Source: Microterricola viridarii (GTDB lineage Bacteria > Actinomycetota > Actinomycetes > Actinomycetales > Microbacteriaceae). Taken from it: a DNA stretch of 64,000 bases. Location of the stretch: positions 620,001 through 684,000 of the forward strand of contig NZ_LT629742.1 of NCBI RefSeq assembly GCF_900104895.1, written 5' to 3'. Both the position numbers and the translations under genes were made by a program. Positions 1 through 14,987 of the stretch are shown one piece after another (position 1 is the first letter of the stretch; the number at the start of each line of letters is the position of its first letter). The notes below the pieces were generated by a model, which was given only the letters and a program-made list of their open reading frames with translations, did not search any database and was not told the DNA's origin.

Positions 1-374
1 GGGGTGCGCCCGAGCAGCACGGCATCCGTCACCGAGAGCTCCAGCTGGCTGTCGGCGTGCTGCTCGGCCAGGGCGACGACGCGGGCGCGGGCGCGCCGGG
101 TCGCGGTGTCCAGCCGGGTTCCGCCGTGGCTGACGGTGCCGCCGTCGCCGTTCAGCACACCGGCGATGAGGTGCAGCAGGGTGCTCTTGCCGGCGCCGTT
201 CGGCCCGATGATCGCGCCGAGGCGGCCCTGCGGGATGGTGCAGTCCACCCCGTCGATGACGAGGGCGCCGGCGCGGGTGAAGTGCAGGCGCGAGGTCTCC
301 AGGCCGGGAGGCGCGGCATCCGGGGCCAGGCCCGCGGCGGCGGCGGGCGCGCGGCGTGCGGCGGTGACGGTCAT
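1..374 (-). CDS. ABC transporter ATP-binding protein, FecE/BtuD type (partial, C-terminus outside window)
   Basis: Cytoplasmic ATPase of a substrate importer; only the first 124 codons are in the window. Translating the minus strand from the ATG at 374 gives a variable Ala-rich leader and then a clear Walker A motif (GPNGAGKST, near residue 60). This is followed by the usual region leading to the Q-loop. The ATG overlaps the TGA stop of the permease gene by four bases (ATGA), so the two are translationally coupled. It is the third gene of a binding protein-permease-ATPase operon read toward position 1. The family serves iron-siderophore, haem, cobalamin or F420-0 import; the substrate is argued under the binding protein. 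The family call is secure, the substrate is not. Confidence 0.9.
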   Translation of the reverse strand, partial: MTVTAARRAPAAAAGLAPDAAPPGLETSRLHFTRAGALVIDGVDCTIPQGRLGAIIGPNGAGKSTLLHLIAGVLNGDGGTVSHGGTRLDTATRRARARVVALAEQHADSQLELSVTDAVLLGRT

Positions 375-1513
375 CCGACCCTCCGGTTTCTGAGCATGAT
401 CAGGGCGAAGACGGGGCCGCCGACGATGGCGGTCAGGATTCCGACCGGCAGCTCGCGCGGGTCGAACAGGGTGCGCGCGCCGGTGTCCATCCAGACCAGG
501 AAGATCGCGCCGGCCAGGGCGGAGAGCGGCAGCAGGGCGCGGTGGCCGGGGCCCGCCCCGCCGCGGGAGACGAGCAGCCGCACGGCGTGCGGCAGCACGA
601 GGCCGACGAATCCGATCGCACCGCTCACCGCGACGAGGGCACCGGTGAGCAGGGCGGTCGCGCCGAGCAGCAGCCAGCGCACCCGGGTGACCGGGATGCC
701 GAGCGCCGAGGCGGCGGTGTCGCCGAAGGCGAAGGCGTCGAGCACGGTGCCGCTGAACAGCAGTGGCAGTCCGATCACGAGCAGGGCGGCCCCGGCGATC
801 ACGACGGCCGGCCAGCGGGCGCCGGCCAGCGAGCCGAGCAGCCAATTCAGGATCTCCCGGTAGCTGTCGCCGGTCGCGCTCCAGAAGATCACCAGGCTGG
901 TCAGCGCGCCGAAGATCGCCGAGACGGCGAGGCCGCCGAGGATGGTGCGGCTCGGGCTGAGCCCTCCGCCGCCCCCGGCGAGCAGCAGGGTGGCGCCCAG
1001 GGCGAGCAGCGCCCCGAGGAACGCCGCGACGGGCAGCGCGATGGCGGCGCCCAACACGATCACGCTGACGGCGCCGAGCGAGGCGCCGGAGCTGAGGCCG
1101 AGTAGGTACGGGTCGGCGAGCGGGTTGCGCATGAGCGCCTGCATCACCGTGCCGCAGAGGGCCAGGCCCGCGCCGACGGCCGCTGCCGTGAGGACCCGGG
1201 GCAGGCGCAGCTCCCAGACGATGCCATCGCGGAGCGGCGAGAGCGGCTCGAGCCCGAACAGGCCGCCGAGGCCGAGGTGGTGCAGCACGCTGGCGAGCAC
1301 CTCGGACGGGCTGAGGTCGGCCGGGCCGATCGCGATGGCCAGCAGCACGGATGCCGCCAGCGCCAGCCCGAGCACGGCAGCCACGACCCCGGTGCGCCCG
1401 CGCCCGCGTCCCCGCGCCACCGCGCCGAGACTGCGCGACTTGTCGTTCGGGGCGCCCGGAACGACAAGTCGCGCAGTCTCGGCGGGCGGTGCGGCGGGGG
1501 AGGGGCTAACCAT
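371..1513 (-). CDS. FecCD-family ABC transporter permease
   Basis: Integral membrane permease of 380 residues, the normal size for FecCD/BtuC proteins. The family signature is visible: GLALCGTVMQALMRNPLADP near residues 115-135, and the C-terminal VSGAIGFVGLVLPH and LPVGILTAIVGGPVF stretches. About nine to ten hydrophobic segments follow residue 40. The ATG at 1513 overlaps the stop codon of the binding-protein gene and the 3' end overlaps the ATPase start. The first 40 codons are odd: they contain a perfect 26-bp inverted repeat (1423-1484) whose sequence recurs in two intergenic regions, so the cytoplasmic N-terminus reads ETARLVVPGAPNDKSRSL. A GTG near codon 43 is an alternative start that would leave the palindrome untranslated. 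Confidence 0.9.
   Translation of the reverse strand: MVSPSPAAPPAETARLVVPGAPNDKSRSLGAVARGRGRGRTGVVAAVLGLALAASVLLAIAIGPADLSPSEVLASVLHHLGLGGLFGLEPLSPLRDGIVWELRLPRVLTAAAVGAGLALCGTVMQALMRNPLADPYLLGLSSGASLGAVSVIVLGAAIALPVAAFLGALLALGATLLLAGGGGGLSPSRTILGGLAVSAIFGALTSLVIFWSATGDSYREILNWLLGSLAGARWPAVVIAGAALLVIGLPLLFSGTVLDAFAFGDTAASALGIPVTRVRWLLLGATALLTGALVAVSGAIGFVGLVLPHAVRLLVSRGGAGPGHRALLPLSALAGAIFLVWMDTGARTLFDPRELPVGILTAIVGGPVFALIMLRNRRVG
1423..1484. repeat. GAGACTGCGCGACTTGT palindrome, copy 1, inside a coding sequence
   Basis: Perfect inverted repeat with 26-nt arms (1423-1448 and 1459-1484) around a 10-nt GC loop. The arm core GAGACTGCGCGACTTGTCGTT recurs near 41375 and 48878. This copy lies near the 5' end of the FecCD reading frame, the others are intergenic. 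Confidence 0.9.
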
Positions 1514-2540
1514 CGAGGGCTGCCAGCTGGGTGTTCAGCGAGGCGACGGCCTCGACGTTGCGCACGCCGGCCTCGCCGGCGGGGAACGGCACGGTGAGGT
1601 AGCGGCCTGCCTGCACGGCGCTCAGCTCGGCGGTCGCGGGGTTCGACTCGAGCAGCGCGATCTTGCTCTCCGCGGTGTTCCAAGCGGCGTCCACGAGCAC
1701 GATCACGTCGGGGTCCGCGGCCACGATCGCCTCCCAGCCGAGCGGCGCCCAGCTGTCCTGCACGGAGGCGGCCACGTTCTCCAGCTCGAGCGCGTCGAGG
1801 ATCATCTGCGGGGCGCCGATGCCGGCTCCCACATAGGGGGTGTCGTTGCCCGAGCTGTACCAGAGCGCGGTGCGGCCGGCACCGGCCGGCTGCACCGCGG
1901 CCAGCTCGGCCTGCTGTCCGGCGATGAGGGTCGCGGCGGCATCCTGCACGTCGAAGATCTCGCCGAGCTGCTCGATGTCGGCGAACACCGCGTCGAAGGT
2001 GAGCGGGTTCGGGCGGTACGCCTCGGCCTTGCACGCGGCGGACGAAACGAGGCTGTTCACGCCGAGGGCGGCGAGGGTCGCCCGGTCGCCCGCGCCCTCC
2101 GCACTCAGGTTCGACTCCCAGCCGGCGTAGACCAGGTCCGGCTCGAGCTCGAGCGTCGCCTCCTGGCCGGGCAGCTTGTCGCTGAGCACCGGCAGCGCCT
2201 CGGCCTCGGCCTGCCAAGTCGCGGCGGCCGGCCCGTCGCCGAACGCCGTGCCGACGATCCGCTCGCCGAGCCCGAGTGCCAGCAGCGCCTCGGTCGAGGT
2301 GGACTTGATCGTGATGACGCGCTCGGGCGCCGCCTCGAAGGTCACCTCGGTGCCGCAGTTGTCGATCGTGAGCGGGTAGTCGGTGCCGCTCTGCTCGAGG
2401 GTCGGCGGCAGCGAGACGACACCGCCGGGCGGCGCGGATGCCGGCGCGGCACAGCCGGCGAGGAGGGCGAGCGATGCGGCGGCGACGCCGATGGCGAGGG
2501 GGCGGCGGGCGGTGCGCCGGGCGGGGTTCAGCGTGAACAA
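1506..2540 (-). CDS. ABC transporter substrate-binding lipoprotein, BtuF/FhuD fold, probable F420-0 type
   Basis: Secreted lipoprotein with a type II signal peptide ending LALLAGC. The start is taken as TTG at 2540 because GGAGG lies six bases before it; an ATG frame extends to 2645 but lacks a ribosome site. That gives 344 residues. Its sequence (CGTEVTFEAAPERVITIKST, then LPGQEATLELEPDLVYAGWE, ending VPFPAGEAGVRNVEAVASL) resembles, from memory, the proposed F420-0 transporter binding proteins (TIGR03868) rather than siderophore or cobalamin binders. That is recognition without a search, so ferric-siderophore or B12 binding stays possible. An F420-type oxidoreductase is encoded 4.5 kb away. 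It heads the operon with the FecCD permease and ATPase. Confidence 0.75.
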   Translation of the reverse strand: MFTLNPARRTARRPLAIGVAAASLALLAGCAAPASAPPGGVVSLPPTLEQSGTDYPLTIDNCGTEVTFEAAPERVITIKSTSTEALLALGLGERIVGTAFGDGPAAATWQAEAEALPVLSDKLPGQEATLELEPDLVYAGWESNLSAEGAGDRATLAALGVNSLVSSAACKAEAYRPNPLTFDAVFADIEQLGEIFDVQDAAATLIAGQQAELAAVQPAGAGRTALWYSSGNDTPYVGAGIGAPQMILDALELENVAASVQDSWAPLGWEAIVAADPDVIVLVDAAWNTAESKIALLESNPATAELSAVQAGRYLTVPFPAGEAGVRNVEAVASLNTQLAALDG

Positions 2541-2919
2541 GAGGGGCCTCCGGACAGGGTGATGGCAGGGAATCCGAGCGATGTCGGCGACCTGCGGCCC
2601 AAGTCCAGGCCGGTTCAGCCCCGTCATCCCGACAGGGGGTCGCATTCAGCCTAGACGCCCGGCGCCGTCAGGCGCCAGACTCCGCTGGATTCTGGGTCCA
2701 GCGCATCTCGCACCCAGGGGATGGCTTCGGTCGCTGGCGCTCCCTCGAGCCAACGGGAAGCGGCACCGGATGCGGAGGCAAGCGCGACATCGGGAGGCAA
2801 CTTCGTGCCGGAAGCGGCCTCCCGATCCGCCGTCGGCCTCCCGAACGGCGGCGCCGGGCGGGCTCAGGGCGCGACGCGCCAGCGCTCCGCGGGTGCCGAG
2901 CCGGCGGGGCCGCCCGCCG
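2541..2919. other. Intergenic region; no gene recognised
   Basis: A 379-bp gap holding the leader of the binding-protein gene and, at 2722-2757, one copy of a dispersed motif (TGGCTTCGGTCGC..GCTCCCTCGAGCC) that recurs at 21992-22025. The stretch 2560-2620 was inspected for a cobalamin riboswitch, but no convincing B12 box or upstream domains were found. Confidence 0.6.
2722..2757. repeat. Dispersed short repeat, TGGCTTCGGTCGC...CTCCCTCGAGCC (copy 1)
   Basis: About 35 bp, nearly identical to 21992-22025 apart from a small difference in the middle. The ends can pair imperfectly (GGCTTCG with CGAGCC). Both copies are intergenic. Function unknown. Confidence 0.7.
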
Positions 2920-4365
2920 CTACGCCTCCAGCGTGTAGAAGGCGCGCGGCCCGGGCAGCGCCGCGCCGGCCAGCGCCCCGGCCACCTCGGCCGCGTTGCT
3001 GCGCACCATGCCGGCCGTGACGCGCACGAAGCCGGGACCGACGCCGGGCACCGAGGAGACACCGCCGATTGCGGCATCCGTGTGCACCGCCCCGCCGGCC
3101 AGGAAGGGCGAGCCGGGCGCGACGCGGATGCCGGCCGCCGCCAGCTGCACCAGCGCTGCACGCTCGTCGGCGACGGGCAGCCAGAGGTTGATGCCGTCCG
3201 GGAGCGTGGTCGAGGCCTCTCCGACGCCGGAGACCGCGTGCACGCCCACCTGGGCCAGCTCGGCGTTCAACGCCTTCTGCCGCGAGTAGTACTGTCGGCG
3301 TGCCTCCGTCACCTCGTCGAGCGCGGTGCCGTCGGTGAGCAGGTCGGCGAGGATGCGCTGCACCATGCGGGAGGTCCAGCCCGGGCCGAGCATGCGCCGG
3401 GACACGATGCGGTCGATCAGCGCGGCCGGCCCGCCGAGGGCGGCGATGCGCAGGTCGGGGCCGTGTGACTTGGAGAAGCTGCGCACGTGCAACACCTGGT
3501 CGGGGATCCAGCGGCCGAGGCTGACCGGGGCGGCCGTGCTGATCTGGCCGGAGTGGTCGTCCTCGACCACGATGAGCTGGGAGCCGTTGCGGGCCGAGCG
3601 GATCACCCGGGCCAGCTCCTGCGCCCGCTCCGCGGTCATCGAGGCGCCGGTGGGGTTCTGCGCCCGCGGCTGCAGCACGAGTGCGGACGGCCCCTGGCGC
3701 AGCGCCACGGCGAGCGAGCTCGGCAGGATGCCGTGCTCGTCGATGGCGACCGGCACGACGGAGGCACCGAGGGCGCTGACCAGGTCGAAGAAGGCGGGGA
3801 AGCCGGGGCTCTCCAGCACCACCCGGTCGCCGAAGCGCACCACCGACTCGAGGCTGCGCGAGACGGCGTCCTGGGCCCCGTCGACCACGGTCAGCGACTC
3901 GGCGCGGTACGGCCAGCTCTCGTCGAGCACCCGGCCGAGCTCCGGCACCACCGGCAGCTCGTGGTAGCTCGAGGTCTCCGCCCGCAGCGAGACACGGGAC
4001 AGCGCCGGGCCGAGCGCGGGCAGCAGCAGCGGGTCGGGGGTGCCGTGGGAGAGGTCGAGGTGGGTGGCGTCCTGCGGCAGCTCGCCGCCGGCGACGAGGC
4101 CGAGCATGCGCGGCGGCAGCCAGGTCTGCGGATGCTGCCGCACGAAGCTGCCGGCCCGCCCGCGCGATTCGATCAGCCCGGCCTGGCTGAGCGCCTGCCA
4201 GGCGTGGCTCACCGTCGCGGGGCTGACGCCCAGCAGCGTGCCGAGCGCGCGCACCGTCGGCAGCCGGTCCCCGGGGCGAAGTTCCCCGCTCGTGATGCGT
4301 CTGGCGATGGCCGCGGCGATGCCGCGCGGGGTGGCATCGTCGATCTCGTTCCAGAACTCGTTCAC
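2920..4365 (-). CDS. MocR-family transcriptional regulator (GntR HTH fused to an aminotransferase-like domain)
   Basis: About 481 residues from GTG 4365, chosen because AAGGG sits five bases upstream; a further in-frame ATG at 4425 lacks one. Residues 10-75 form a GntR winged helix (ARRITSGELRPGDRLPTVRALGTLLGVSPATVSH, in two parts). Residues 100-480 are an aminotransferase class I fold that retains QNPTG (N237), EDD (269-270) and the PLP lysine K299 in SFSKSHGPDLR. Such proteins sense PLP or a PLP adduct and usually regulate a neighbouring aminotransferase or amino-acid pathway. It is divergent from the pyrimidine/ureide catabolic cluster, which contains an aminotransferase, so it is the likely local regulator. 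Substrate inferred only. Confidence 0.88.
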   Translation of the reverse strand: MNEFWNEIDDATPRGIAAAIARRITSGELRPGDRLPTVRALGTLLGVSPATVSHAWQALSQAGLIESRGRAGSFVRQHPQTWLPPRMLGLVAGGELPQDATHLDLSHGTPDPLLLPALGPALSRVSLRAETSSYHELPVVPELGRVLDESWPYRAESLTVVDGAQDAVSRSLESVVRFGDRVVLESPGFPAFFDLVSALGASVVPVAIDEHGILPSSLAVALRQGPSALVLQPRAQNPTGASMTAERAQELARVIRSARNGSQLIVVEDDHSGQISTAAPVSLGRWIPDQVLHVRSFSKSHGPDLRIAALGGPAALIDRIVSRRMLGPGWTSRMVQRILADLLTDGTALDEVTEARRQYYSRQKALNAELAQVGVHAVSGVGEASTTLPDGINLWLPVADERAALVQLAAAGIRVAPGSPFLAGGAVHTDAAIGGVSSVPGVGPGFVRVTAGMVRSNAAEVAGALAGAALPGPRAFYTLEA

Positions 4366-4497
4366 AGAAACCCTTGCCTTTCTGGCTGGTTCGGCAACAT
4401 GATGATTAACGCGTGTGTCACACACTGAAACAAAAGAGAAATGTTTACGCCGAACAATAACAGAATGAGCAAAGAAGCTCGGTTCGGCTCAACCGCT

Positions 4498-4531: not shown

Positions 4532-4597
4532 GCACCCCGCGAAGTATTACGCATCGCGGCTCAAACCCAGTTTGAAATAGGCGCAAGTGGAGGCAAG

Positions 4598-5461
4598 ATG
4601 ACCGGCGACACCCCCAAAATCGTTCGAGCAGCACTCACCCAGACCACGTGGACCGGCGACAAGGAGTCCATGCTCGACAAGCACGAGCAGTTCGCGCGCA
4701 CGGCCAAGGAGCAGGGCGCCCAGGTGATCTGCTTCCAGGAGCTGTTCTACGGCCCCTACTTCGGCATCACGGAGGACGCCAAGTACTACGACTACGCCGA
4801 GCCGGCAGACGGCCCGATCGTGCAGCGCTTCGCCGCCCTGGCGAAGGAACTCGGCATGGTGATGGTGCTGCCGATCTACGAGGAAGACCAGCCGGGCGTC
4901 TACTACAACACCGCCGTTGTGGTCGACTCCGACGGCACCATCCTCGGCCAGTACCGCAAGCACCACATCCCGCACCTCGACAAGTTCTGGGAGAAGTTCT
5001 ACTTCCGCCCCGGCAACATGGGCTACCCCGTCTTCAACACCGCGGTCGGCCCGATCGGCGTCTACATCTGCTACGACCGGCACTTCCCGGAGGGGTGGCG
5101 CGAGCTCGCCCTCAACGGCGCGCAGATCGTGTTCAACCCGAACGCCACCAAGCCCGGCCTCTCCAACCGGCTCTGGGAGATCGAGCAGGCGGCCGCGGCC
5201 GCCGCCAACGGCATGTTCGTCGCGGCGTCCAACCGCGTCGGGCGCGAGGACAACGAGTACGGCGACCTCGCCGTCACCTTCTACGGCTCCAGCCAGGTGC
5301 TCGACCCGCGCGGCAACTGGGTCGGCGAGCTCGGTTCGTCCACCGACGAGGAGGTGCTCGTGCGCGACCTCGACATGAGCCTGGTGCGCCAGGTGCGCAA
5401 CGACTGGCAGTTCTTCCGCGACCGCCGCCCCGAGTCCTACACGTCCATCCCGAAGCCGTAG
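4598..5461 (+). CDS. Nitrilase-superfamily amidohydrolase, beta-ureidopropionase-like (N-carbamoyl-beta-alanine amidohydrolase)
   Basis: Cytoplasmic C-N hydrolase of 287 residues. The start ATG 4598 follows GGAGG by four bases; the open frame continues upstream without a ribosome site. The Glu-Lys-Cys triad is visible: E48 in CFQELFYG, K121 in YRKHHIP, C158 in ICYDRHFPEGWRELAL. The adjacent dihydropyrimidinase makes N-carbamoyl-beta-amino acids, so the expected reaction is hydrolysis of N-carbamoyl-beta-alanine to beta-alanine, CO2 and ammonia (PydC/UPB1 role). N-carbamoyl-D-amino-acid amidohydrolase is the main alternative. It is the first gene of a probable operon running to 14975, with 40 bp to the next gene. 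Confidence 0.85.
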   Translation: MTGDTPKIVRAALTQTTWTGDKESMLDKHEQFARTAKEQGAQVICFQELFYGPYFGITEDAKYYDYAEPADGPIVQRFAALAKELGMVMVLPIYEEDQPGVYYNTAVVVDSDGTILGQYRKHHIPHLDKFWEKFYFRPGNMGYPVFNTAVGPIGVYICYDRHFPEGWRELALNGAQIVFNPNATKPGLSNRLWEIEQAAAAAANGMFVAASNRVGREDNEYGDLAVTFYGSSQVLDPRGNWVGELGSSTDEEVLVRDLDMSLVRQVRNDWQFFRDRRPESYTSIPKP

Positions 5462-5501
5462 CCGCCGAACAGGAAAGAGGAGCAGGAGAAGGGGAACAGA
5501 C

Positions 5502-6965
5502 ATGGCAACGACCCTCATCACCGGCGGCACCGTGGTCACCTCCACGGGCCGGGCGGATGCCGATGTGCTCATCGACGGCGAGAAGATCGTGGCGGTGCTG
5601 GCGCGCGGCAGCGTGCTGCTCGGCACCGACCTGACGGCCGGCGTCGACACCGTCATCGACGCCACCGGCAAGTACGTGATCCCGGGCGGCATCGATGCGC
5701 ACACGCACATGTCGCTGCCGTTCGGCGGCACCGCGGCATCCGACAACTTCGAGACGGGCACCCGGGCGGCCGCCTGGGGCGGCACGACGACGATCATCGA
5801 CTTCGCCGTGCAGACCCACGGCCAGAAGGTGCAGGACGGCCTGGCCACCTGGCACGGGATGGCCGCGGGGCAGTGCGCGATCGACTACGCGTTCCACCAG
5901 ATCGTGGGCGACGTGAACCCGGAGTCGCTGCTCGCGCTCCGCGGGCTCCCGGACGAGGGCATCTCGAGCTACAAGATGTTCATGGCCTACCCCGGCGTCT
6001 TCTACAGCGACGACGCCCAGATCCTGCGCGCCATGCAGGTCGCCGCCGACACCGGGCTGATGACGATGATGCACGCCGAGAACGGCCCGGCCATCGACGT
6101 GCTCGTCGAGCAGCTGCTCGCCCAGGGCAAGACCGACCCGTACTACCACGGGGTGGCGCGCGCCTGGCAGATGGAGGAGGAGGCGACGCACCGGGCGATC
6201 ATGCTCGCCAACCTCACCGGGGCGCCGCTGTACGTCGTGCACGTGAGCGCCAAGCAGGCCGTCGAGCAGCTCGCGGCGGCCCGCGACAACGGCCAGAACG
6301 TCTTCGGCGAGACCTGCCCGCAGTACCTCTACCTCTCGCTGGAGGACCAGCTCGGCGCCTCCAGCGACGAGTGGGGCAACTTCGAGGGCGCCAAGTGGGT
6401 GTGCTCGACGCCGCTGCGCTCCAAGGAGGAGGGCCACCAGCACCACATGTGGCAGAGCCTGCGCACGAACGACATCCAGATGGTCTCCACCGACCACTGC
6501 CCGTTCTGCATGAAGGGGCAGAAGGACCTGGGGCTCGGCAACTTCTCCAAGATCCCGAACGGCATCGGCTCGGTCGAGCACCGCATGGACCTGCTCTACC
6601 AGGGCGTCGTCGACGGGCAGATCACGCTGGAGCGCTGGGTGGAGATCACCAGCACCACCCCGGCGCGCATGTTCGGGCTGTACGGCAAGAAGGGCGTCAT
6701 CCAGCCGGGTGCCGACGCAGACATCGTCGTCTACGACCCGAACGGCCACACCTCGATCGGCTACCCCGTCGACTCCGACGGCAACCCGACCGGGCGCAGC
6801 CACCACATGAACATGGACCACTCCGCCTGGGAGGGCTACGAGATCGACGGCCACGTCGACACCGTGCTCTCCCGCGGCAAGGTGGTCGTCACCGACCGGC
6901 AGTACGTCGGCCAGAAGGGCGATGGCCAGTTTGTGAGGCGCGGGCTCAGCCAGTACCTCATCTAG
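5502..6965 (+). CDS. Dihydropyrimidinase / hydantoinase
   Basis: Zinc amidohydrolase of 487 residues, typical for the family. It hydrolyses the ring of dihydrouracil or dihydrothymine, or of 5-substituted hydantoins. The metal ligands are in place: HTH at 67-69 in GGIDAHTHM, carbamylated-lysine candidate K158 in SSYKMFMAY, H191 in MMHAENG, H247 in VVHVSAK, and D331 in STDHCPF. A purine-rich site (AAGGGGAACAGAC) precedes ATG 5502. Flanked by a carbamoyl amidohydrolase and, downstream, a beta-amino acid aminotransferase, it fits PydB of the reductive pyrimidine pathway. Hydantoinases are hard to separate from dihydropyrimidinases by sequence, so the natural substrate is open. Confidence 0.9.
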   Translation: MATTLITGGTVVTSTGRADADVLIDGEKIVAVLARGSVLLGTDLTAGVDTVIDATGKYVIPGGIDAHTHMSLPFGGTAASDNFETGTRAAAWGGTTTIIDFAVQTHGQKVQDGLATWHGMAAGQCAIDYAFHQIVGDVNPESLLALRGLPDEGISSYKMFMAYPGVFYSDDAQILRAMQVAADTGLMTMMHAENGPAIDVLVEQLLAQGKTDPYYHGVARAWQMEEEATHRAIMLANLTGAPLYVVHVSAKQAVEQLAAARDNGQNVFGETCPQYLYLSLEDQLGASSDEWGNFEGAKWVCSTPLRSKEEGHQHHMWQSLRTNDIQMVSTDHCPFCMKGQKDLGLGNFSKIPNGIGSVEHRMDLLYQGVVDGQITLERWVEITSTTPARMFGLYGKKGVIQPGADADIVVYDPNGHTSIGYPVDSDGNPTGRSHHMNMDHSAWEGYEIDGHVDTVLSRGKVVVTDRQYVGQKGDGQFVRRGLSQYLI

Positions 6966-6975
6966 CAGCGGCAAC

Positions 6976-7006
6976 GGGCGGATGCCGGAGGCTCCGGCAT
7001 CCGCCC
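6976..7006. terminator. Perfect 14-bp hairpin between dihydropyrimidinase and LLM genes
   Basis: GGGCGGATGCCGGA (6976-6989) pairs fully with TCCGGCATCCGCCC (6993-7006) around a 3-nt loop. No T-run follows. It may partially terminate or stabilise the upstream message. The stem is built from the heptamer GGATGCC and its complement. Confidence 0.6.
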
Positions 7007-7052
7007 CTCACACAGACGTGAATCGGCACATTTCGTAAGGAACGGGAACCAG

Positions 7053-8069
7053 ATGGATTTTGGAGCGGTACTGCAGACCAACCCACCCTCGGCGCGCACG
7101 GTGCAGCTGGCCAAGCTGGCAGAGGACCACGGCTTCAGCCATGTGTGGACCTTCGACTCGCACCTGCTCTGGCAGGAGCCCTACGTCATCTACAGCCAGA
7201 TCCTGGCCGAGACGCGCAAGGTCATCGTCGGCCCCATGGTCACCAACCCGGCCACCCGGGACTGGACGGTCACCGCCTCGCTCTACGCCACGCTCAATGA
7301 GATGTACGGCAACCGCACCATCTGCGGCATCGGCCGCGGCGACTCCGCCGTGCGCGTCACCAACGGGGCGCCGACCACGCTGACCACGCTGCGCGAGTCG
7401 ATCCACGTCATCCGCGAGCTGGCCAACTCCCGCTCGGTCGAGTACAACGGCGCCACCCTGCAGTTCCCGTGGAGCGTGGGATCCAAGCTCGACGTCTGGG
7501 TGGCCGCCTACGGCCCGCTCGCGCTCAAACTCACGGGGGAGGTCGGCGACGGCTTCATCCTGCAGCTGGCGGATGTCGACATCGCCGCGTGGATGATCAA
7601 GACCGTGCGCGCGGCGGCCGAGGCGGCCGGGCGCGACCCGATGTCGATCAAGTTCTGCGTCGCCGCCCCGATGTACATCGGCGACGACTGGGAGCACATG
7701 CGCGACCAATGCCGCTGGTTCGGCGGCATGGTCGGCAACCACGTCGCCGACATCGTCGCCAAGTACGGCGCGCATGGCGAGATCCCCGAAGCCCTCACCG
7801 ACTACATCAAGGCGCGCGAGGGCTACGACTACAACGAGCACGGCCGATCGGGCAACACGCACGCCAGCTTCGTGCCGGACGACATCGTCGACCGCTTCTG
7901 CCTGCTGGGCACCGCCAAGGAGCACATCGAGAAGCTCGAGGCGCTCAAGGCGCTCGGCGTCGACCAGTTCGCCGGCTACCTGCAGCACGACAACAAGGAA
8001 GAGACGCTGCGGGTCTACGGGGAGACCGTGATCCCGGCCCTCAGCGATCACATCACGGCCAAGGCATGA
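7053..8069 (+). CDS. LLM-class flavin/F420-dependent oxidoreductase, TIGR03842-like
   Basis: Cytoplasmic luciferase-like TIM-barrel protein of 338 residues, AAGGA before the ATG. It begins MDFGAVLQTNPPSARTVQLA and carries the LLM features of a substrate/cofactor strand (HVWTFDSHLLWQEPY), GIGRGDSAVR, and VWVAAYGPLALKLTGEVGDG. From memory this is the TIGR03842 (CPS_4043) subfamily, annotated F420-dependent and repeatedly found beside hydantoinase/dihydropyrimidinase genes. The cofactor (F420 or FMN) cannot be read from sequence. It lies inside the catabolic operon and its stop overlaps the next start (ATGA). Since no dihydropyrimidine dehydrogenase is present, it is the only redox enzyme here that could act on the ring. 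Confidence 0.85.
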   Translation: MDFGAVLQTNPPSARTVQLAKLAEDHGFSHVWTFDSHLLWQEPYVIYSQILAETRKVIVGPMVTNPATRDWTVTASLYATLNEMYGNRTICGIGRGDSAVRVTNGAPTTLTTLRESIHVIRELANSRSVEYNGATLQFPWSVGSKLDVWVAAYGPLALKLTGEVGDGFILQLADVDIAAWMIKTVRAAAEAAGRDPMSIKFCVAAPMYIGDDWEHMRDQCRWFGGMVGNHVADIVAKYGAHGEIPEALTDYIKAREGYDYNEHGRSGNTHASFVPDDIVDRFCLLGTAKEHIEKLEALKALGVDQFAGYLQHDNKEETLRVYGETVIPALSDHITAKA

Positions 8070-9037
8070 CGTTGACCACCTCGCCGCCCGCAGAGCTGAC
8101 CGAGCCTGCCCAGACCCGCCGCACCGGCGGGGGCTCCGGCGCGCGCCGGAGCGGCGCCCCGCGCGGCGCCCGGGAACTGCAGGTGTGGGCATACGGCGCG
8201 CTCGGCCTGGCCGCGATCGTGATCGTCTGGGAGCTCTACAAGCTGCTCGCCCCCGCCGACGGCGTCGTGATCGGCGGGCTCCGGGTTCTGCCGCGCACCA
8301 CCGACCTGGCCATGCCGCACATCTGGGACATGCTCGCCCGGCTGTTCGAGCCGGTCACCCGGGCCGAGGGGGCTGCGCCGCTCTGGGCCGCCGTCGGCGC
8401 CGGCGCGCTCGTCACGCTCGGCATCGCCGCGGTCGGCTGGCTGGTCGGCCTCGTCGTCGGCGTCGGGCTCGCACTGGTGATGCTGCGCTGGCGACTGGCC
8501 GAGTGGGGCCTGCTGCCCTGGATCATCCTCAGCCAGACCGTTCCGCTCATCGCCTTCGCGCCGATCGTGCGCAGCTGGGGCTCCAAGATCCAGATCGGCG
8601 GCTTCGAGTGGGCAGACTGGATGTCGGTCGCCCTCATCGCCAGCTACCTCGCCTTCTTCCCGATCGCGATCGGCGCGCTGCGCGGCCTGCAGTCGCCGGA
8701 CGTGATCCACACGGAGCTGATGCGCAGCTACGGCATCGGCTGGTGGCGCACCCTCGTCAAGCTGCGCGTGCCGGCATCCGTGCCCTACCTGCTGCCGGCG
8801 CTGCGCCTCGGCGCGGCCAACGCCGTCATCGGCGCCGTCGTCGCCGAGGTGTCGACGGGCCTGCAGGGCGGCCTCGGCCGCATCCTCATCCAGTACGCCG
8901 GCCAGGCCAGCGGCGACCCGGCCAAGGCCTGGGGCCCGATCTTCGGCGCCATCGTGCTCGGCCTCGTCGTGGCGGGCTCGATCGCCCTGCTCGGCGTCTT
9001 CCTCAAGAACTACCGACGCGTGGAGGTCAACGCATGA
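8066..9037 (+). CDS. ABC transporter permease, NMT1/SsuC/ThiX type (first of two)
   Basis: Membrane permease of 323 residues with an Arg/Gly-rich N-terminus and about six hydrophobic segments. The BPD_transp_1 EAA-type loop is ELMRSYGIGWWRTLVKLRVPASVPYLLPALR near residues 220-250. The start ATG 8066 overlaps the preceding TGA; longer open frames upstream are chance extension through the LLM gene. It pairs with the second permease at 9918 and the ATPase between them. It likely imports a pyrimidine, hydantoin or related precursor for the enzymes of the same operon (inference from context). Confidence 0.88.
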   Translation: MTLTTSPPAELTEPAQTRRTGGGSGARRSGAPRGARELQVWAYGALGLAAIVIVWELYKLLAPADGVVIGGLRVLPRTTDLAMPHIWDMLARLFEPVTRAEGAAPLWAAVGAGALVTLGIAAVGWLVGLVVGVGLALVMLRWRLAEWGLLPWIILSQTVPLIAFAPIVRSWGSKIQIGGFEWADWMSVALIASYLAFFPIAIGALRGLQSPDVIHTELMRSYGIGWWRTLVKLRVPASVPYLLPALRLGAANAVIGAVVAEVSTGLQGGLGRILIQYAGQASGDPAKAWGPIFGAIVLGLVVAGSIALLGVFLKNYRRVEVNA

Positions 9038-9918
9038 ACCAGGCTCAGCACGGCGCACCGTCTCAGACAACCGCCGACGCCGTCACCGTGACCGGCGTCG
9101 ACAAGACCTTCGACACCCGGAGCGGACAGGTGCACGCGCTGCAGGGCATCAACCTCACCGTCAAGGCCGGCGAGTTCGTGTCGCTGATCGGGCCGAGCGG
9201 GTGCGGCAAGTCCACCCTCATGCGCATCATCGCCGATCTCGACCAGCCCACCGCGGGGAGCGTCGCCGTCTTCGGCAAGAGCGCGGGCCAGGCGCGCCTC
9301 GACCAGGACTACGGCATCGCCTTCCAGCAGGCCGGCCTGCTGCCCTGGCGCACGGTCGCCGCCAACGTCGGCCTGCCGCTCGAGCTGCACGGGGTCGGCA
9401 GCGCCGCCCGCGCGGCCCGGGTGGCCGAGCTGCTGAGCATGGTCGGGCTCACCGAGTTCGCCGACCGCTACCCGGACCAGCTCTCGGGCGGCATGCAGCA
9501 GCGCGTCGCCATCGCCCGTTCGCTGGCGGAGAGCCCGAGCCTGTTGCTCATGGACGAGCCGTTCGGCGCGCTCGACGAGATGACCAGGGAGCGGATGCAG
9601 ACGGAGCTCGTGCGCATCTGCGCCGAGACCCAGGCCGCCGTCGTGTTCGTCACCCACTCCATCCCGGAGGCCGTCTACCTCTCCGACCGCGTGGTCGTCA
9701 TGTCGGCCCGCCCCGGCCGGATCCAGGAGATCGTGCCGATGCGCCTGGACGGCGAGCGCACCGAGTCCCTCCGCGAGGACACCCGCTACTTCGAGATGAT
9801 CACCGCGGTGCGCGAGGCGCTGCACGGCGGCAACCCGGGCGGCGGCATCGCCACGGGTGGCCTGGCCACCGGCGCCGTCGCGGCCTCCGCGCCCGTGCGC
9901 GGGGCGGAGACGCGCTGA
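9034..9918 (+). CDS. ABC transporter ATP-binding protein, nitrate/sulfonate/thiamine-precursor type
   Basis: Cytoplasmic ATPase of 294 residues. Walker A is GPSGCGKST (53-61), Q-loop AFQQAGLLPWRTV, signature LSGGMQQR, Walker B LLLMDEPFGALDE, and the switch histidine is in FVTHSIPEA. The short C-terminal tail is Gly/Ala-rich and variable. Both ends overlap neighbours (ATGA with the first permease, TGATG with the second), showing a tightly coupled transport operon. The sequence type is the SsuB/TauB/ThiZ clade. Confidence 0.92.
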   Translation: MNQAQHGAPSQTTADAVTVTGVDKTFDTRSGQVHALQGINLTVKAGEFVSLIGPSGCGKSTLMRIIADLDQPTAGSVAVFGKSAGQARLDQDYGIAFQQAGLLPWRTVAANVGLPLELHGVGSAARAARVAELLSMVGLTEFADRYPDQLSGGMQQRVAIARSLAESPSLLLMDEPFGALDEMTRERMQTELVRICAETQAAVVFVTHSIPEAVYLSDRVVVMSARPGRIQEIVPMRLDGERTESLREDTRYFEMITAVREALHGGNPGGGIATGGLATGAVAASAPVRGAETR

Positions 9919-10739
9919 TGAGCACGGCTGCGGTATCGAGACGGGGCGCGGCCCCCGGCCGGAAGCCGATGAGCGCGCGCACCGAGTCGTGGCTGCGCAT
10001 CATCGCGCCCGTCGCGGTCGGCGCGATCGTGCTCGGCGGCTGGCAGTTCCTGGTGACCGTGGTCGGCGTCAGCGAGTACCTGCTGCCGAGCCCGGCATCC
10101 ATCGCCACCCAGTTCGTCGACTACCTGCCCTCGATCCTCTCCGCCATGTACATCACCGGCATGAACGCGCTGATCGGACTGCTCGTCGGCTCCATCCTCG
10201 GCATCGGCCTGGCGGCACTCGCCGCGAACTCGCGGCTGGTCGACGGCATGAGCGCGCCGATCGTCGCCTCGATCGCCGTCATCCCGATCGTGGCCCTGGC
10301 CCCGGTGCTGAACTCGATGTTCGGCGCGGACAGCCAGTTCAGCCGGCAGGCCATCGCGGCGCTGGCCACCTTCGTGCCCGTGTTCATCAACACGCTGCGC
10401 GGGTTCCGGCAGACCCGGGCCGTGCACCGCGACCTGATGCGGGTCTACGCGGCCAGCCCCGGCCAGGTGCTGCGCACCGTGACGCTGCCGACGGCGAAGC
10501 CGTTCATCTTCACCGGCATCCGGATCGCCTCCTCGCTGGCCGTGATCTCGGCCCTCGTCGCCGAGTACTTCGGCGGACCGCGCGGCGGCCTGGGCGGCCT
10601 CATCTCGACCTCGGCCGCGTCCAGCGCCTACGCCAGGGCGTGGGCCTACGTCGTCGCATCCATCGTGCTCGGCCTCCTCTTCTACGTCGCGACGCTCGCG
10701 CTCGAACGCCTCGCCAACCGGCGCGGGGGTGGTTCGTAG
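9918..10739 (+). CDS. ABC transporter permease, NMT1/SsuC/ThiX type (second of two)
   Basis: Membrane permease of 273 residues, shorter than and different from the first one, so the transporter is probably a heterodimer. The coupling loop reads DLMRVYAASPGQVLRTVTLP followed by AKPFIFTGIRIA. Ends with a basic tail (LANRRGGGS). The start ATG 9918 overlaps the ATPase stop codon. A 119-bp gap with a short tandem repeat separates it from the binding-protein gene. Confidence 0.88.
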   Translation: MSTAAVSRRGAAPGRKPMSARTESWLRIIAPVAVGAIVLGGWQFLVTVVGVSEYLLPSPASIATQFVDYLPSILSAMYITGMNALIGLLVGSILGIGLAALAANSRLVDGMSAPIVASIAVIPIVALAPVLNSMFGADSQFSRQAIAALATFVPVFINTLRGFRQTRAVHRDLMRVYAASPGQVLRTVTLPTAKPFIFTGIRIASSLAVISALVAEYFGGPRGGLGGLISTSAASSAYARAWAYVVASIVLGLLFYVATLALERLANRRGGGS

Positions 10740-10791
10740 CCCACACACTCCCCGGGCCCGACGGGCCAGGGGCAGGCAACACCAGGCAACT

Positions 10792-10821
10792 CAACACAAC
10801 GCACGGCAACACAACGCACGG
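10792..10821 (+). repeat. 15-bp tandem repeat upstream of the binding-protein gene
   Basis: CAACACAACGCACGG occurs twice head to tail (10792-10806, 10807-10821), followed by a partial third unit CAACACAGG. It is an unstructured A/C-rich leader between the second permease and the lipoprotein gene. Probably a slippage product. Confidence 0.8.
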
Positions 10822-10858
10822 CAACACAGGCACCACTGAGAGCAGGGAAAGGACTGAA

Positions 10859-12028
10859 ATGAAACACAGCACACGTCGCCTCGCGACACTGGGCGCGCTC
10901 ACACTGTCGGCAGCGCTCGTACTCTCCGCTTGTTCCGGTTCTGGCGACACCTCCGGAGGTTCGGGTGGCTCGACCGATGGCGCTGGCGGCGGCGACGCCA
11001 CCACCGCGGTCAAGCTCCAGCTGCAGTGGCTGCCGCAGGGCCAGTTCGCCGGCTACTTCGCCGCCGCCGAGCAGGGCTACTTCGCCGATGAGGGCCTGGA
11101 CGTCGAGATCATCCCGTCCGGCGGCGACATCGTGCCGCAGGACGCCCTCGCCAACGGCGACGTCGACTACGCGATCGCCTGGGTGCCGAAGGCGCTCGGC
11201 TCGGTCGAGGCCGGCGCCAACATCACCGACATCGCGCAGATCTTCCAGCGCTCCGGCACCCTGCAGGTGTCGTGGGCGGATTCCGGCATCGACTCGGTCG
11301 CCGACTTCGAGGGCAAGAAGATCGGCTCCTGGGGCTTCGGCAACGAGTGGGAGATCTTCGCGGCCATGGCCGAGGAGGGCCTGGACTCCTCCACCGTGCA
11401 GATCATCACGCAGGACTTCAACATGAACGCCTTCCTGCAGGGTGACATCGACGCCGCGCAGGCGATGACCTACAACGAGTACGCGCAGCTGCTCGAGGCC
11501 GTCAACCCCGAGACCGGCAAGCAGTACACGGATGCCGACTTCAACGTGATCAGCTACCAGGACACGGTCGGCGCCATGCTGCAGGACGCGATCTGGGCCG
11601 ACACCGCCCGGCTCGAGAGCGACACCGCCTACCAGGACACCACGGTCAAATTCCTCAAGGCCGTCGTCAAGGGGTGGATCTACGCGGCGGAGAACCCGGA
11701 GGAGGCCTCGGCGATCACCATCGCGGCAGGGTCCAACTGGGGCCCCAGCCACGAGCTGTGGATGGTCAACGAGACCAACAAGCTGATCTGGCCGGCACCG
11801 GAGGGCATCGGCGTGATCGACGAGGCCGCCTGGGACGCCACCGTCAAGGGTGCCCTCTCGGCCGTCAACGAGACCGGGGCCTCCCCGATCACGAAGGAGC
11901 CGCCGGCATCCGCCTGGTCCAACGACTGGATCACCAAAGCACTCGACGAACTCAAAGCTGAGGGAGTCGATGTGACGGGCGAGAGTTTCACGCCCATCAC
12001 CGTCACCCTCGCCGAGGGCGGCAACTAA
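10859..12028 (+). CDS. ABC transporter substrate-binding lipoprotein, NMT1/THI5-like
   Basis: Secreted lipoprotein of 389 residues. The signal peptide ends LVLSAC with lipidated C25, followed by a Ser/Gly linker. The mature part begins KLQLQWLPQGQFAGYFAA and continues EQGYFADEGLDVEIIPSGG, the hallmark of ThiY/NMT1-type binders of pyrimidine-like ligands. GSWGFGNEWEIFAAM and AWSNDWITKALDEL are later landmarks. AAAGGACTGAA precedes the ATG. It completes the importer begun at 8066. The ThiY-like fold plus the enzyme neighbours suggest a pyrimidine or cyclic ureide ligand rather than nitrate or sulfonate; this is inference. Confidence 0.88.
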   Translation: MKHSTRRLATLGALTLSAALVLSACSGSGDTSGGSGGSTDGAGGGDATTAVKLQLQWLPQGQFAGYFAAAEQGYFADEGLDVEIIPSGGDIVPQDALANGDVDYAIAWVPKALGSVEAGANITDIAQIFQRSGTLQVSWADSGIDSVADFEGKKIGSWGFGNEWEIFAAMAEEGLDSSTVQIITQDFNMNAFLQGDIDAAQAMTYNEYAQLLEAVNPETGKQYTDADFNVISYQDTVGAMLQDAIWADTARLESDTAYQDTTVKFLKAVVKGWIYAAENPEEASAITIAAGSNWGPSHELWMVNETNKLIWPAPEGIGVIDEAAWDATVKGALSAVNETGASPITKEPPASAWSNDWITKALDELKAEGVDVTGESFTPITVTLAEGGN

Positions 12029-12035
12029 AACCGGA

Positions 12036-12073
12036 TCCGACAGGCCCAGCCACCGCCGGCTGGGCCTGTCGGA
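12036..12073. terminator. 16-bp perfect hairpin after the transporter genes
   Basis: TCCGACAGGCCCAGCC (12036-12051) pairs perfectly with GGCTGGGCCTGTCGGA (12058-12073) around ACCGCC. No T-tract follows, so it may attenuate rather than stop transcription into the aminotransferase gene 33 bp on. Confidence 0.75.
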
Positions 12074-12106
12074 GCCATTCACTGCACCATCGAAAGGCAG
12101 CAACAC

Positions 12107-13429
12107 ATGCTCGAAACATCCAACCCCGATCTCGACGCCATCACGGCCGAGCTCGATCAGCGCCACGTCTTCCACTCGTGGTCGGCGCAGGCCGCTCTCG
12201 CGCCGTTCGTGATTGCAGGCGGCAGGGGGTCGCGGGTCTGGAACCATGAAGGGACCAGCTACCTCGACTTCTCGAGCCAGCTGGTGAATGTCAACATCGG
12301 GCACCAGCACCCCGCGGTCATCTCCGCCATCCAGGAGCAGGCCAGCCTGCTCGCCACCGTCGCCCCCGCGACCGCCAACCTGGCCCGCGGCGAGGCCGCC
12401 AAGCGCATCGCCGATCGTGCACCGGAGGGCTTCAACAGGGTCTTCTTCACCAACGGCGGGGCGGATGCCAACGAGAACGCGATCCGCATGGCACGCCAGT
12501 TCACCGGCCGCGACAAGGTGCTCAGCACCTACCGCTCGTACCACGGCAACACCGGCTCTGCCGTCGTCGCCACCGGCGACTGGCGCCGCATCCCCAACGA
12601 GTACGCCACCGGCCACGTGCACTTCTTCGGCCCCTACGCCTACCGCAGCGACTTCTGGTCGAGCACGCCGGAGCAGGAGGCGGAGCGTGCCCTGCGCCAC
12701 CTCGAGCGGGTCATCCTGAGCGAGGGACCGTCGTCGATCGCGGCGATCCTGCTGGAGACCATCCCCGGCACGGCCGGCGTGCTGCTGCCGCCGCCCGGCT
12801 ACCTGGCCGGCGTGCGCGAGCTCGCCACCCGCCACGGCATCCTGCTCATCCTCGACGAGGTCATGTGCGGCTTCGGCCGCACCGGCCGCTGGTTCGCCTT
12901 CGACGGCTACGACGTCGTCCCCGACCTGATCACCTTCGCCAAGGGCGTCAACTCCGGCTACGTCCCGGTCGGTGGCGTCGTCATCAGCGACCCGATCGCC
13001 GACTTCTTCAACGACCGGGTGTTCCCCGGCGGCCTCACCTACAGCGGCCACCCGCTAGCGATGGCCTCGATCGTCGCCGCCCTCGACACGATGGCCTCAG
13101 AGGGCATCGTCGAGAACGCGGCAGCCGTCGGTCGCGAGCACATCGGCCCCGGCCTGGCCGCCCTGGCCGAGAAGCACGACATCATCGGCGAGGTGCGCGG
13201 CGAGGGCGTCTTCTGGGCCGTCGAGCTCGTCGCCGACCGCGCCACCCGCGAGCCGGTCAGCGCCGCCGTGATGGGCCGCATCAAGAAGGAGCTCGTCGCG
13301 CGCGGCCTGCTGCCCTTCCTGGCCGAGAACCGCATCCACGTCGTGCCGCCGTGCGTCGTCACGCCGGACGAGGTCGCCGAGGCGATGGCCATCTACGACG
13401 AGGTGCTCTCCCTCGACCTGCTCGGCTAA
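12107..13429 (+). CDS. Class III PLP aminotransferase, probable beta-alanine (omega-amino acid) transaminase
   Basis: Cytoplasmic enzyme of 440 residues. The class III hallmarks are present: GGADANENAIRMAR (118-131), YHGNTG, D250-E251 in LILDEVMCGFGRTGRW, and PLP lysine K279 in LITFAKGVNSGY. A GAAAGG site precedes the ATG. The expected role is transfer of the amino group of beta-alanine (or 3-aminoisobutyrate) to pyruvate or 2-oxoglutarate, giving malonate (or methylmalonate) semialdehyde for the dehydrogenase encoded next. That is the PydD step. The substrate follows from its position between ureidopropionase and semialdehyde dehydrogenase genes; 4-aminobutyrate or taurine transaminase are alternatives. 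Confidence 0.88.
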   Translation: MLETSNPDLDAITAELDQRHVFHSWSAQAALAPFVIAGGRGSRVWNHEGTSYLDFSSQLVNVNIGHQHPAVISAIQEQASLLATVAPATANLARGEAAKRIADRAPEGFNRVFFTNGGADANENAIRMARQFTGRDKVLSTYRSYHGNTGSAVVATGDWRRIPNEYATGHVHFFGPYAYRSDFWSSTPEQEAERALRHLERVILSEGPSSIAAILLETIPGTAGVLLPPPGYLAGVRELATRHGILLILDEVMCGFGRTGRWFAFDGYDVVPDLITFAKGVNSGYVPVGGVVISDPIADFFNDRVFPGGLTYSGHPLAMASIVAALDTMASEGIVENAAAVGREHIGPGLAALAEKHDIIGEVRGEGVFWAVELVADRATREPVSAAVMGRIKKELVARGLLPFLAENRIHVVPPCVVTPDEVAEAMAIYDEVLSLDLLG

Positions 13430-13475
13430 CGCCCCGCACCACAGATTTTCACCAGAAAAGAATAGGAACACCGCA

Positions 13476-14975
13476 ATGTCCGAAATCCCCACCGTCCAGC
13501 ACTGGGTCAATGGCGCACCCGCAGCCGGAACCTCCACGCGCACCGCACCCGTCTTCAACCCGGCCCGCGGCGTCGCAGAGAAGAACGTGCTGATGGCCAG
13601 CACCGCCGACGTCGACACCGTGGTCGCGGCAGCCAAGGCCGCCCTCCCGGCCTGGCGCGACATGTCGATCGCCAAGCGCCAGAACATCATGTTCAACTTC
13701 CGCGAGCTGCTGCACAAGCGCACCCCCGAGCTGGCCGCGATCCTCACCAACGAGCACGGCAAGGTGCTCTCGGATGCCGCAGGCGAGATCGCCCGCGGCC
13801 TCGAGGTCGTCGAGTACGCCTGCAGCATGCCGACCCTGATGAAGGGCGACTACTCCGAGAACGTCTCCACCGGCGTCGACGTGTACTCGCTCAAGCAGCC
13901 GGTCGGCGTCGTCGGCATCATCAGCCCGTTCAACTTCCCCGCGATGGTGCCGCTCTGGTTCTTCCCGCTGGCCATCGCCGCCGGCAACACGGTCGTGCTG
14001 AAGCCCTCGGAGAAGGACCCGTCCGCGGCCAACTTCATGGCGCAGATGCTCAAGGACGCCGGCCTGCCCGACGGCGTCTTCAACGTCGTGCACGGCGACA
14101 AGGAGGCCGTCGACGCCCTCCTCGTCAACCCGGATGTCGGCTCGATCTCCTTCGTCGGCTCGACCCCCATCGCCAAGTACATCTACGAGACGGCCAGCGC
14201 CCACGGCAAGCGCGTGCAGGCCCTCGGCGGCGCGAAGAACCACATGCTGGTGCTTCCGGATGCCGACCTCGACCTGGCCGCCGATGCCGCCGTCAACGCG
14301 GGCTTCGGCTCGGCCGGTGAGCGCTGCATGGCGATCAGCGTGATCCTCGCCGTCGACGCTGTCGCCGACGAGCTGATCGCCAAGATCAGCGAGCGCATGG
14401 CGACGCTGAAGACCGGTGACGGAACCCGCGGCTGCGACATGGGCCCGCTCATCACCGAGGTGCACCGCGACAAGGTGTCCGGCTACATCGACATCGCCGC
14501 GGCCGACGGCGCGACCGTCGTCGTGGACGGCCGCGGCATCGAGGTCGACGGCGACGCCGACGGCTTCTGGCTCGGCCCGACCCTGCTCGACCGGGTGCCG
14601 CTCAGCTCCGCCGCCTACACCGACGAGATCTTCGGCCCGGTGCTGTCGATCGTGCGCGTCGAGGGCTACGAACAGGGCCTCGACATCATCAACTCGAGCC
14701 AGTACGGCAACGGAACCGCCATCTTCACCAACGACGGTGGTGCAGCCCGGCGCTTCCAGAACGAGGTGACCGTCGGCATGATCGGCATCAACGTGCCGAT
14801 CCCCGTGCCGGTGGCCTACCACTCCTTCGGCGGCTGGAAGAACTCGGCCTTCGGTGACGCGAAGGCGTACGGCCCGGCCGGCATCGCCTTCTTCACCCGC
14901 GAGAAGGCCGTCACCTCGCGCTGGCTCGACCCGAGCCACGGCGGCCTGAACCTGGGCTTCCCGCAGAACCACTAG
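13476..14975 (+). CDS. mmsA: CoA-acylating methylmalonate-semialdehyde dehydrogenase
   Basis: Cytoplasmic aldehyde dehydrogenase of 499 residues, the standard MmsA/IolA length. It shows SPFNFPAMVPLWFFP (150-164), LKPSEKDP, and catalytic C284 in the family-specific GSAGERCMAIS. It converts methylmalonate or malonate semialdehyde with CoA and NAD to propionyl-CoA or acetyl-CoA plus CO2. AGGAA lies upstream of the ATG. As the last gene of the run it completes dihydropyrimidine to acyl-CoA conversion (PydE-type step); elsewhere MmsA serves valine or inositol breakdown. The match of motif and context is strong. Confidence 0.93.
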   Translation: MSEIPTVQHWVNGAPAAGTSTRTAPVFNPARGVAEKNVLMASTADVDTVVAAAKAALPAWRDMSIAKRQNIMFNFRELLHKRTPELAAILTNEHGKVLSDAAGEIARGLEVVEYACSMPTLMKGDYSENVSTGVDVYSLKQPVGVVGIISPFNFPAMVPLWFFPLAIAAGNTVVLKPSEKDPSAANFMAQMLKDAGLPDGVFNVVHGDKEAVDALLVNPDVGSISFVGSTPIAKYIYETASAHGKRVQALGGAKNHMLVLPDADLDLAADAAVNAGFGSAGERCMAISVILAVDAVADELIAKISERMATLKTGDGTRGCDMGPLITEVHRDKVSGYIDIAAADGATVVVDGRGIEVDGDADGFWLGPTLLDRVPLSSAAYTDEIFGPVLSIVRVEGYEQGLDIINSSQYGNGTAIFTNDGGAARRFQNEVTVGMIGINVPIPVPVAYHSFGGWKNSAFGDAKAYGPAGIAFFTREKAVTSRWLDPSHGGLNLGFPQNH

Positions 14976-14987
14976 GGAATCCTGCGT

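Follow-up and report, generated by a model that had tools for sequence, protein, structure and literature searches.

We analysed a 64,000-nucleotide stretch of Microterricola viridarii DNA (the window; positions 620001-684000 of a single-contig genome of 3.84 Mb) in which nine contiguous plus-strand genes, at 4598-14975, form a catabolic operon with a MocR-type regulator gene reading divergently from it. Checks of open reading frames, gene starts and families recovered the gene order, families and coordinates given in a first-pass annotation, the divergent regulator included, and agreed with its description of an operon that takes up and degrades a cyclic ureide. Hydrolases, a four-gene ATP-binding cassette (ABC) importer, a transaminase and MmsA are all present. 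The sole redox enzyme of the operon left without an assigned step is a luciferase-like monooxygenase (LLM)-class oxidoreductase of family TIGR03842. We propose, with a probability of about 0.8, that the operon encodes the reductive pyrimidine degradation (Pyd) pathway, and that dihydropyrimidine dehydrogenase is replaced by this non-homologous, predicted F420H2-dependent reductase. The genes are as follows.

371..1513, minus strand: putative F420-0 (deazaflavin precursor) ABC importer permease (TIGR03869, 484 bits, cut-off 437)
1506..2645, minus strand: putative F420-0 ABC importer substrate-binding protein (TIGR03868, 452 bits, cut-off 392)
2920..4425, minus strand: MocR-type regulator, GntR plus aminotransferase domain (PF00392 and PF00155; no MocR equivalog above its cut-off)
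4598..5461, plus strand: nitrilase-superfamily C-N hydrolase, proposed N-carbamoyl-beta-alanine amidohydrolase (beta-ureidopropionase) (PF00795, 220 bits)
5502..6965, plus strand: dihydropyrimidinase, HydA/PydB (TIGR02033, 525 bits, cut-off 393)
7053..8069, plus strand: LLM-class oxidoreductase, proposed F420H2-dependent uracil/thymine reductase (TIGR03842, 595 bits, cut-off 295)
8066..9037, plus strand: ABC importer permease 1 (PF00528)
9034..9918, plus strand: ABC importer ATPase (many ABC ATPase models; nitrate-/taurine-type at 209-212 bits)
9918..10739, plus strand: ABC importer permease 2 (PF00528)
10859..12028, plus strand: ABC importer binding protein, NMT1/THI5 fold (PF09084, 137 bits)
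12107..13429, plus strand: class-III aminotransferase, proposed beta-alanine/beta-aminoisobutyrate transaminase (PRK06062, 732 bits, cut-off 472)
13476..14975, plus strand: MmsA, CoA-acylating (methyl)malonate-semialdehyde dehydrogenase (TIGR01722, 673 bits, cut-off 448)

The first-pass annotation had seen neither a PydA/PreT-type reductase nor Rut genes in the window and had called for a genome search for pydA/preTA and rutA. That search extended the observation to the whole genome. PF01180, the catalytic domain of PydA and PreA proteins, had a single genome-wide match, a class-2 PyrD (464 bits, cut-off 433). The PreA model (NF006183) stayed below its cut-off, leaving no PydA or PreA in the host genome, and RutA had no match there. 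Since both are missing from the genome, the classical reductase and the Rut pathway are unavailable to this host. The same PreA model (cut-off 335) was over cut-off in none of the 52 genomes of the host's family that carry TIGR03842, with two weaker matches at 109 and 88 bits, and in 2 of 296 genomes sampled across the phylum, neither among the 62 with TIGR03842. RutA was over cut-off in 2 of the 52 host-family genomes.

TIGR03842 is an NCBI 'hypothetical equivalog' with no assigned function. Among the best 80 of 588 candidates, the named relatives closest to the LLM protein belong to Microbacteriaceae, headed by Leifsonia (91% identity). For a profile built from 26 members, the nearest solved sequence was Mer, the F420-dependent methylene-tetrahydromethanopterin reductase (E 3e-51), followed by F420-dependent Adf and FGD-type enzymes. 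We modelled the protein with AlphaFold2 from 30 close sequences (predicted local distance difference test, pLDDT, 84.7; predicted template-modelling score, pTM, 0.87). When this model was compared with the PDB using Foldseek and ranked by E-value, ranks 1-14 were all F420-dependent enzymes, with Mer first at a template-modelling (TM) score of ~0.8, and the first flavin monooxygenase stood at rank 15. The GP.VTNP..R region is common to TIGR03842 and Mer, and two segments invariant in TIGR03842, RWF...V.NHV and YDY..H, were not seen in Mer. Residues that do not vary within the family include R221, W222, N229, H230, Y258, D259, Y260 and H263. As judged from sequence and predicted fold, the LLM protein is probably F420-dependent. 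We rejected the assignment of the protein as Mer itself, given 132 versus 349 bits for the Mer equivalog and the absence of Glu6, and its assignment as a RutA-like ring opener, with RutA absent from its NCBIfam matches (E 0.001), from 25 solved sequences and from 50 folds among the matches listed. In one relative, the TIGR03842 gene matched in two pieces (G206:C1:2193491-2194476, L084), indicating a frameshift or a sequencing error.

The company kept by the LLM gene is that of a pyrimidine pathway. We examined the neighbourhoods of the top-ranking 80 of 588 confirmed candidates, whose record titles all name actinobacteria, so that the sample covers this phylum alone. HydA was present in all 80 of these named loci and the nitrilase in 79; counts for the other genes were 60 for the aminotransferase, 58 for the binding protein, 52 for the MocR-type regulator and 28 for MmsA. 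The phylum sample held 65 places over the TIGR03842 cut-off in 62 of the 296 genomes, and we used 60 loci from 59 genomes. Not used were the host's own place, two on contigs shorter than 4 kb (G164 and G135) and the second, partial places in G092 and in G200; contig ends cut into several of the loci used. A dihydropyrimidinase or N-carbamoyl amidase gene lay within ~10 kb of the LLM gene in 55 of the 60: HydA with the nitrilase in 32, HydA with a Zn-dependent carbamoylase in 15, the carbamoylase only in 7 and the nitrilase only in 1. Counted by amidase type, 33 loci have the nitrilase and 22 the Zn-dependent carbamoylase, three examples of which match TIGR01879 above cut-off. Thus the second hydrolase swaps between two families and the LLM gene stays, as expected of a pathway enzyme. 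Three loci of one family (L072, L073 and L076; f33) carry TIGR03842 with only MmsA of the pathway in reach, which may reflect a dispersed pathway or another role of the enzyme.

F420 genes also lie close to the operon. CofD (TIGR01819, 306 bits) is within 10 kb to the left of the window, CofE and FGD adjoin each other 8-10 kb to its left, and the set is completed by the putative F420-0 importer permease and binding protein at the window's start. A further LLM-class protein, a member of the F420_G6P family (TIGR03557, 270 bits; L124:6981-8201), directly precedes CofE and is found near CofE in several genera; we did not count it as an F420 gene. For the co-occurrence analysis, CofD was scored with TIGR01819, and PF01933 was dropped as it also matches non-F420 genomes such as E. 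coli. Among 110 host-family genomes, TIGR03842 was present in 52 and CofD in 50, with both in 43, the LLM gene only in 9, CofD only in 7 and neither in 51 (Fisher p 2e-14, not corrected for kinship). CofE, tested in 22 genomes, was over cut-off in all 9 with the LLM gene and no CofD and absent from all 11 chosen genomes with neither. Thus, all 52 host-family genomes with TIGR03842 have CofD or CofE. Across the phylum, comparison by eye placed CofD at E <1e-50 in 59 of the 62 genomes with TIGR03842; the other three (G115, G224, G232) are 90-96% complete. Where LLM and CofD occurred together in the host family, they were 3.4-16.1 kb apart in 38 of 43 genomes and on different contigs in the remaining 5. 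CofD, CofE or the F420-0 importer was present in 48 of the 80 named loci and in 43 of the 63 for which at least 9 kb of upstream sequence was available. Clustering of the genes at these loci, which also contained antisense artefacts, gave CofD in 28, the F420-0 binding protein in 24, its permease in 19, CofC in 13 and CofE in 8 loci outside the operon.

Another phylum supplies an independent case. On a plasmid of Leisingera caerulea (Alphaproteobacteria), cofG-cofH-cofD-cofC-cofE-npdG-TIGR03842 form one run, divergent to genes for an NCS1 nucleobase symporter, HydA, a Zn-dependent hydrolase (carbamoylase), an aminotransferase and an NAD(P) transhydrogenase; its LLM protein scores 506 bits with TIGR03842 and its HydA 615 bits with TIGR02033. 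Paracoccus alcaliphilus has cofGHDCE-npdG-TIGR03842 followed by an ABC transporter, with no hydA in the 29 kb examined. From these gene runs, the F420 operons of both species appear to serve the TIGR03842 enzyme specifically. The partners of hydA and the Zn-dependent hydrolase gene in Burkholderia pyrrocinia and Azospirillum ramasamyi are PreA and, adjacent to it, an NAD(P)-dependent oxidoreductase, and NCS1 is also present in the Burkholderia PreT-PreA cluster. Among the loci compared, the Leisingera cofGHDCE-npdG-LLM block occupies the position that PreT-PreA holds in these two other proteobacterial hydA clusters. A Caballeronia sp. SBC2 plasmid carries a partial TIGR03842 match, covering residues 205-332 of the Leisingera query (L238:9001-9384), with genes for a Zn-dependent hydrolase and alanine dehydrogenase and part of a transhydrogenase gene after it and transposases nearby; this locus is a decayed cluster. 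Among plasmid records, 61 match PreA and 13 match the LLM protein, 12 of these at 43% identity or more. We do not claim that PreA and TIGR03842 are mutually exclusive. Taken as a whole, gene context lends strong support to a predicted F420H2-dependent uracil/thymine reductase.

The remaining genes of the operon would supply import and the later steps. Four-base overlaps occur at 8066-8069 and 9034-9037, and intergenic gaps are at most 119 bases, which fits a single transcript for 4598-14975. A consensus scan of 4300-15300 found no promoter-like sites, and its three terminator-like sites, all on the minus strand, compare with 3.9 expected by chance and are uninformative. Among the matches listed, no nitrate- or taurine-type model was above cut-off for the importer ATPase. 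The closest solved relative of the binding protein is 4nmy, followed by ThiY (a formylaminopyrimidine binder) and THI5, making it probably a pyrimidine binder by sequence kinship. The top solved relatives of the nitrilase-type enzyme, for which no equivalog model was above cut-off, are N-carbamoylputrescine amidohydrolase and then beta-ureidopropionases; those of HydA are D-hydantoinase/dihydropyrimidinase. PRK06062, which identifies the aminotransferase, is a subfamily model without assigned function, and the top solved relative is taurine:2-oxoglutarate aminotransferase (6jix). This kinship and the remote one to ThiY/THI5 are consistent with a pathway that starts from a pyrimidine and yields a beta-amino acid. 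For the transaminase and semialdehyde dehydrogenase step of the Pyd pathway, both models are above cut-off, with the putative substrates assigned by family. A 783-residue sulfatase-like protein encoded directly downstream of the operon (window 15179-17530), with weak matches to named sulfatases, is probably separate.

A model that accommodates these assignments is that the ABC importer takes up uracil or thymine, and that the LLM enzyme would then pass a hydride from F420H2 to the pyrimidine ring, giving dihydrouracil or dihydrothymine, with F420H2 presumably regenerated by FGD. Dihydropyrimidinase would open the ring, the nitrilase-type enzyme would release CO2, NH3 and beta-alanine or beta-aminoisobutyrate, and the transaminase and MmsA would yield acetyl- or propionyl-CoA, the substrates in each case being those suggested by family. 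We rejected npdG as the F420 reductase partner: the host has one weak match (74 bits, cut-off 150). FGD, which lies beside CofE, appears the better candidate.

How the host would obtain its deazaflavin is suggested by the genes present. The model for CofH (FO synthase) had no match at E 1e-10 in the host genome (CofG was not searched for) and none in 30 others of the 52 host-family genomes with TIGR03842, 31 of 52 in all. A candidate FbiC was not an FO synthase, giving only a weak regulator match, and was not counted. Given CofD, CofE and a putative F420-0 importer, the missing CofH is most simply explained by salvage of FO or F420-0. The F420 gene set without CofH suggests cofactor scavenging, and the host may import a deazaflavin precursor, the core probably being taken up by the adjacent F420-0-type ABC transporter.

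Three other readings of the LLM gene were considered. The first-pass annotation took the first reductive step to be absent and the substrate to be possibly something other than uracil, so that an imported saturated ureide such as dihydrouracil or a hydantoin would be degraded, with the LLM protein performing some other redox step. D-hydantoinases are indeed among the relatives of HydA, and the ABC importer is unlike the carrier in the PreT-PreA cluster of Burkholderia, which is of NCS1 type. However, the binding protein remotely resembles the pyrimidine binders ThiY and THI5, the transaminase and MmsA form the last, beta-amino acid section of uracil/thymine breakdown, and the Leisingera F420-LLM block adjoins NCS1-hydA-carbamoylase, which elsewhere are partners of PreT-PreA. 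We consider this reading unlikely. The step from a missing classical enzyme to a missing reduction is not supported: the TIGR03842 gene lies near Pyd hydrolase genes in most phylum loci and in Leisingera, where its block takes the PreT-PreA position, and it tracks F420 genes, all of which makes its product a candidate non-classical reductase for uracil/thymine.

The extended Pyd pathway includes reduction of malonate semialdehyde to 3-hydroxypropionate by PydE, and the LLM enzyme could carry out this reaction with F420H2 in an operon that degrades imported dihydropyrimidines. Such a role would be useful where another fate for the semialdehyde is needed, as MmsA is in only 28 of the 80 named loci, and the structural relatives of the modelled LLM protein include Adf, an F420-dependent alcohol dehydrogenase. 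Yet the host operon has MmsA and so has no need of it, the first step would be left without an enzyme, in Leisingera too, where the genes lie beside an NCS1 nucleobase carrier, and in our judgement F420 devoted to simple aldehyde reduction would be unexpected; we regard this role as quite improbable. RutA is itself an LLM protein, and it shares Pfam family PF00296 with the host enzyme, which could on that basis be a RutA-type flavin mononucleotide (FMN)-dependent monooxygenase or reductase with F420 genes nearby by coincidence. We give this very little credence: RutA was not among the NCBIfam matches, solved sequences or folds among the matches listed, a ring-opening oxygenase would render dihydropyrimidinase pointless, and TIGR03842 tracks CofD/CofE.

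Several observations weigh against our proposal that the TIGR03842 enzyme is an F420H2-dependent first reductase. The AlphaFold2 model of the predicted reductase has two weak stretches (pLDDT <50), residues 37-40 and 98-103, and Glu6 of Mer, the residue altered in the solved entry titled E6Q, is not conserved, none of the 26 members examined having Glu where it aligns. The nitrilase-type enzyme has N-carbamoylputrescine amidase as its nearest named family (255 bits versus a cut-off of 410), and at 5 of the 60 phylum loci no Pyd hydrolase was recognised in the vicinity, 3 of the 5 having MmsA only. The genus Caballeronia has both PreA (SBC1, M1242) and the TIGR03842 remnant (SBC2), in different strains. 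The host-family co-occurrence statistics ignore kinship, and since 7 genomes in that family have CofD and no LLM gene, F420 has other uses there. npdG was above cut-off in 0 of 63 genomes. As for linkage, host-genome queries detected F420 genes within ~10 kb in none of the 60 phylum loci, which limits physical linkage to certain lineages. RNase III (21), LysR-like (20), MutM (18) and DUF177-like (16) genes also recur at the named loci (LysR and DUF177 named by eye); thus, part of the F420 linkage is shared chromosomal background. Of 57 loci with both flanks, 38 lack rnc, mutM and DUF177; 23 of these carry F420 genes, including loci from Arthrobacter, Actinotalea, Cellulomonas and Demequina, and 15 carry none. 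F420 genes were found in 16 of the 19 full-flank loci with that background.

If the proposal is correct, F420 gains an everyday role in bacteria, and TIGR03842, a family known by number alone, gains a function. The available text of a 2021 review of F420 states that, Actinobacteria aside, no bacterial F420H2-dependent reductases had been studied experimentally, and raises the question of why Proteobacteria and Chloroflexi produce the cofactor; 'uracil' is absent from its main text as available (PMC8498797). A 2015 study of Mycobacterium smegmatis reports, in its accessible part, that the genes of the reductive uracil pathway were not all identified, and names no dehydrogenase gene there (PMC4617892). 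For lineages that carry TIGR03842, our answer would bear on both F420's bacterial role and the missing uracil dehydrogenase gene. In open-licence PubMed Central, we found no paper on an F420-dependent uracil reductase among the matches listed, and none on TIGR03842, TIGR03868, CPS_4043, an F420-0 ABC transporter or F420 salvage. The enzyme may also be another non-PydA protein able to reduce fluoropyrimidines, and cofactor cross-feeding could come to light. More tentatively, and at somewhat short of even odds, TIGR03842 may be an F420H2-dependent uracil reductase that represents a further first-step chemistry and is a main reason many Actinomycetes and some Alphaproteobacteria keep F420, with uracil use by hosts that retain CofD, CofE and FGD and lack FO synthase depending on deazaflavin precursor from their neighbours, acquired through the adjacent importer.

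Several known systems come near this one. Mer has the closest solved sequence and fold and a similar GP.VTNP..R region, but identity is ~28%, and TIGR03842 lacks Glu6 and has RWF..xVxNHV and YDYxxH segments not seen in Mer. A yanthine reductase predicted in 2025 from Chloroflexota uric acid clusters is, in the available text, likewise a PF00296 protein proposed for F420-dependent reductive dearomatisation of a pyrimidine ring; however, it belongs to a purine (uric acid) pathway beside SsnA, and uracil is not proposed there as a substrate (PMC12507026). The ferredoxin-dependent PydAc of Clostridium chromiireducens, as described in the portion available, catalyses the same first step with a different electron donor, yet it is a PydA homolog, whereas the host enzyme is from another family (PMC7332683). 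The classical Pyd pathway, with PydA or PreT-PreA, is alike in the enzyme families that act after the dihydropyrimidine, in import and in clustering. Its first enzyme is a DHO_dh-type flavoprotein, whereas that of the host operon is LLM-class, probably F420H2-dependent and linked to F420 genes. We conclude that the operon represents the reductive pyrimidine degradation pathway with a probable F420H2-dependent first enzyme.

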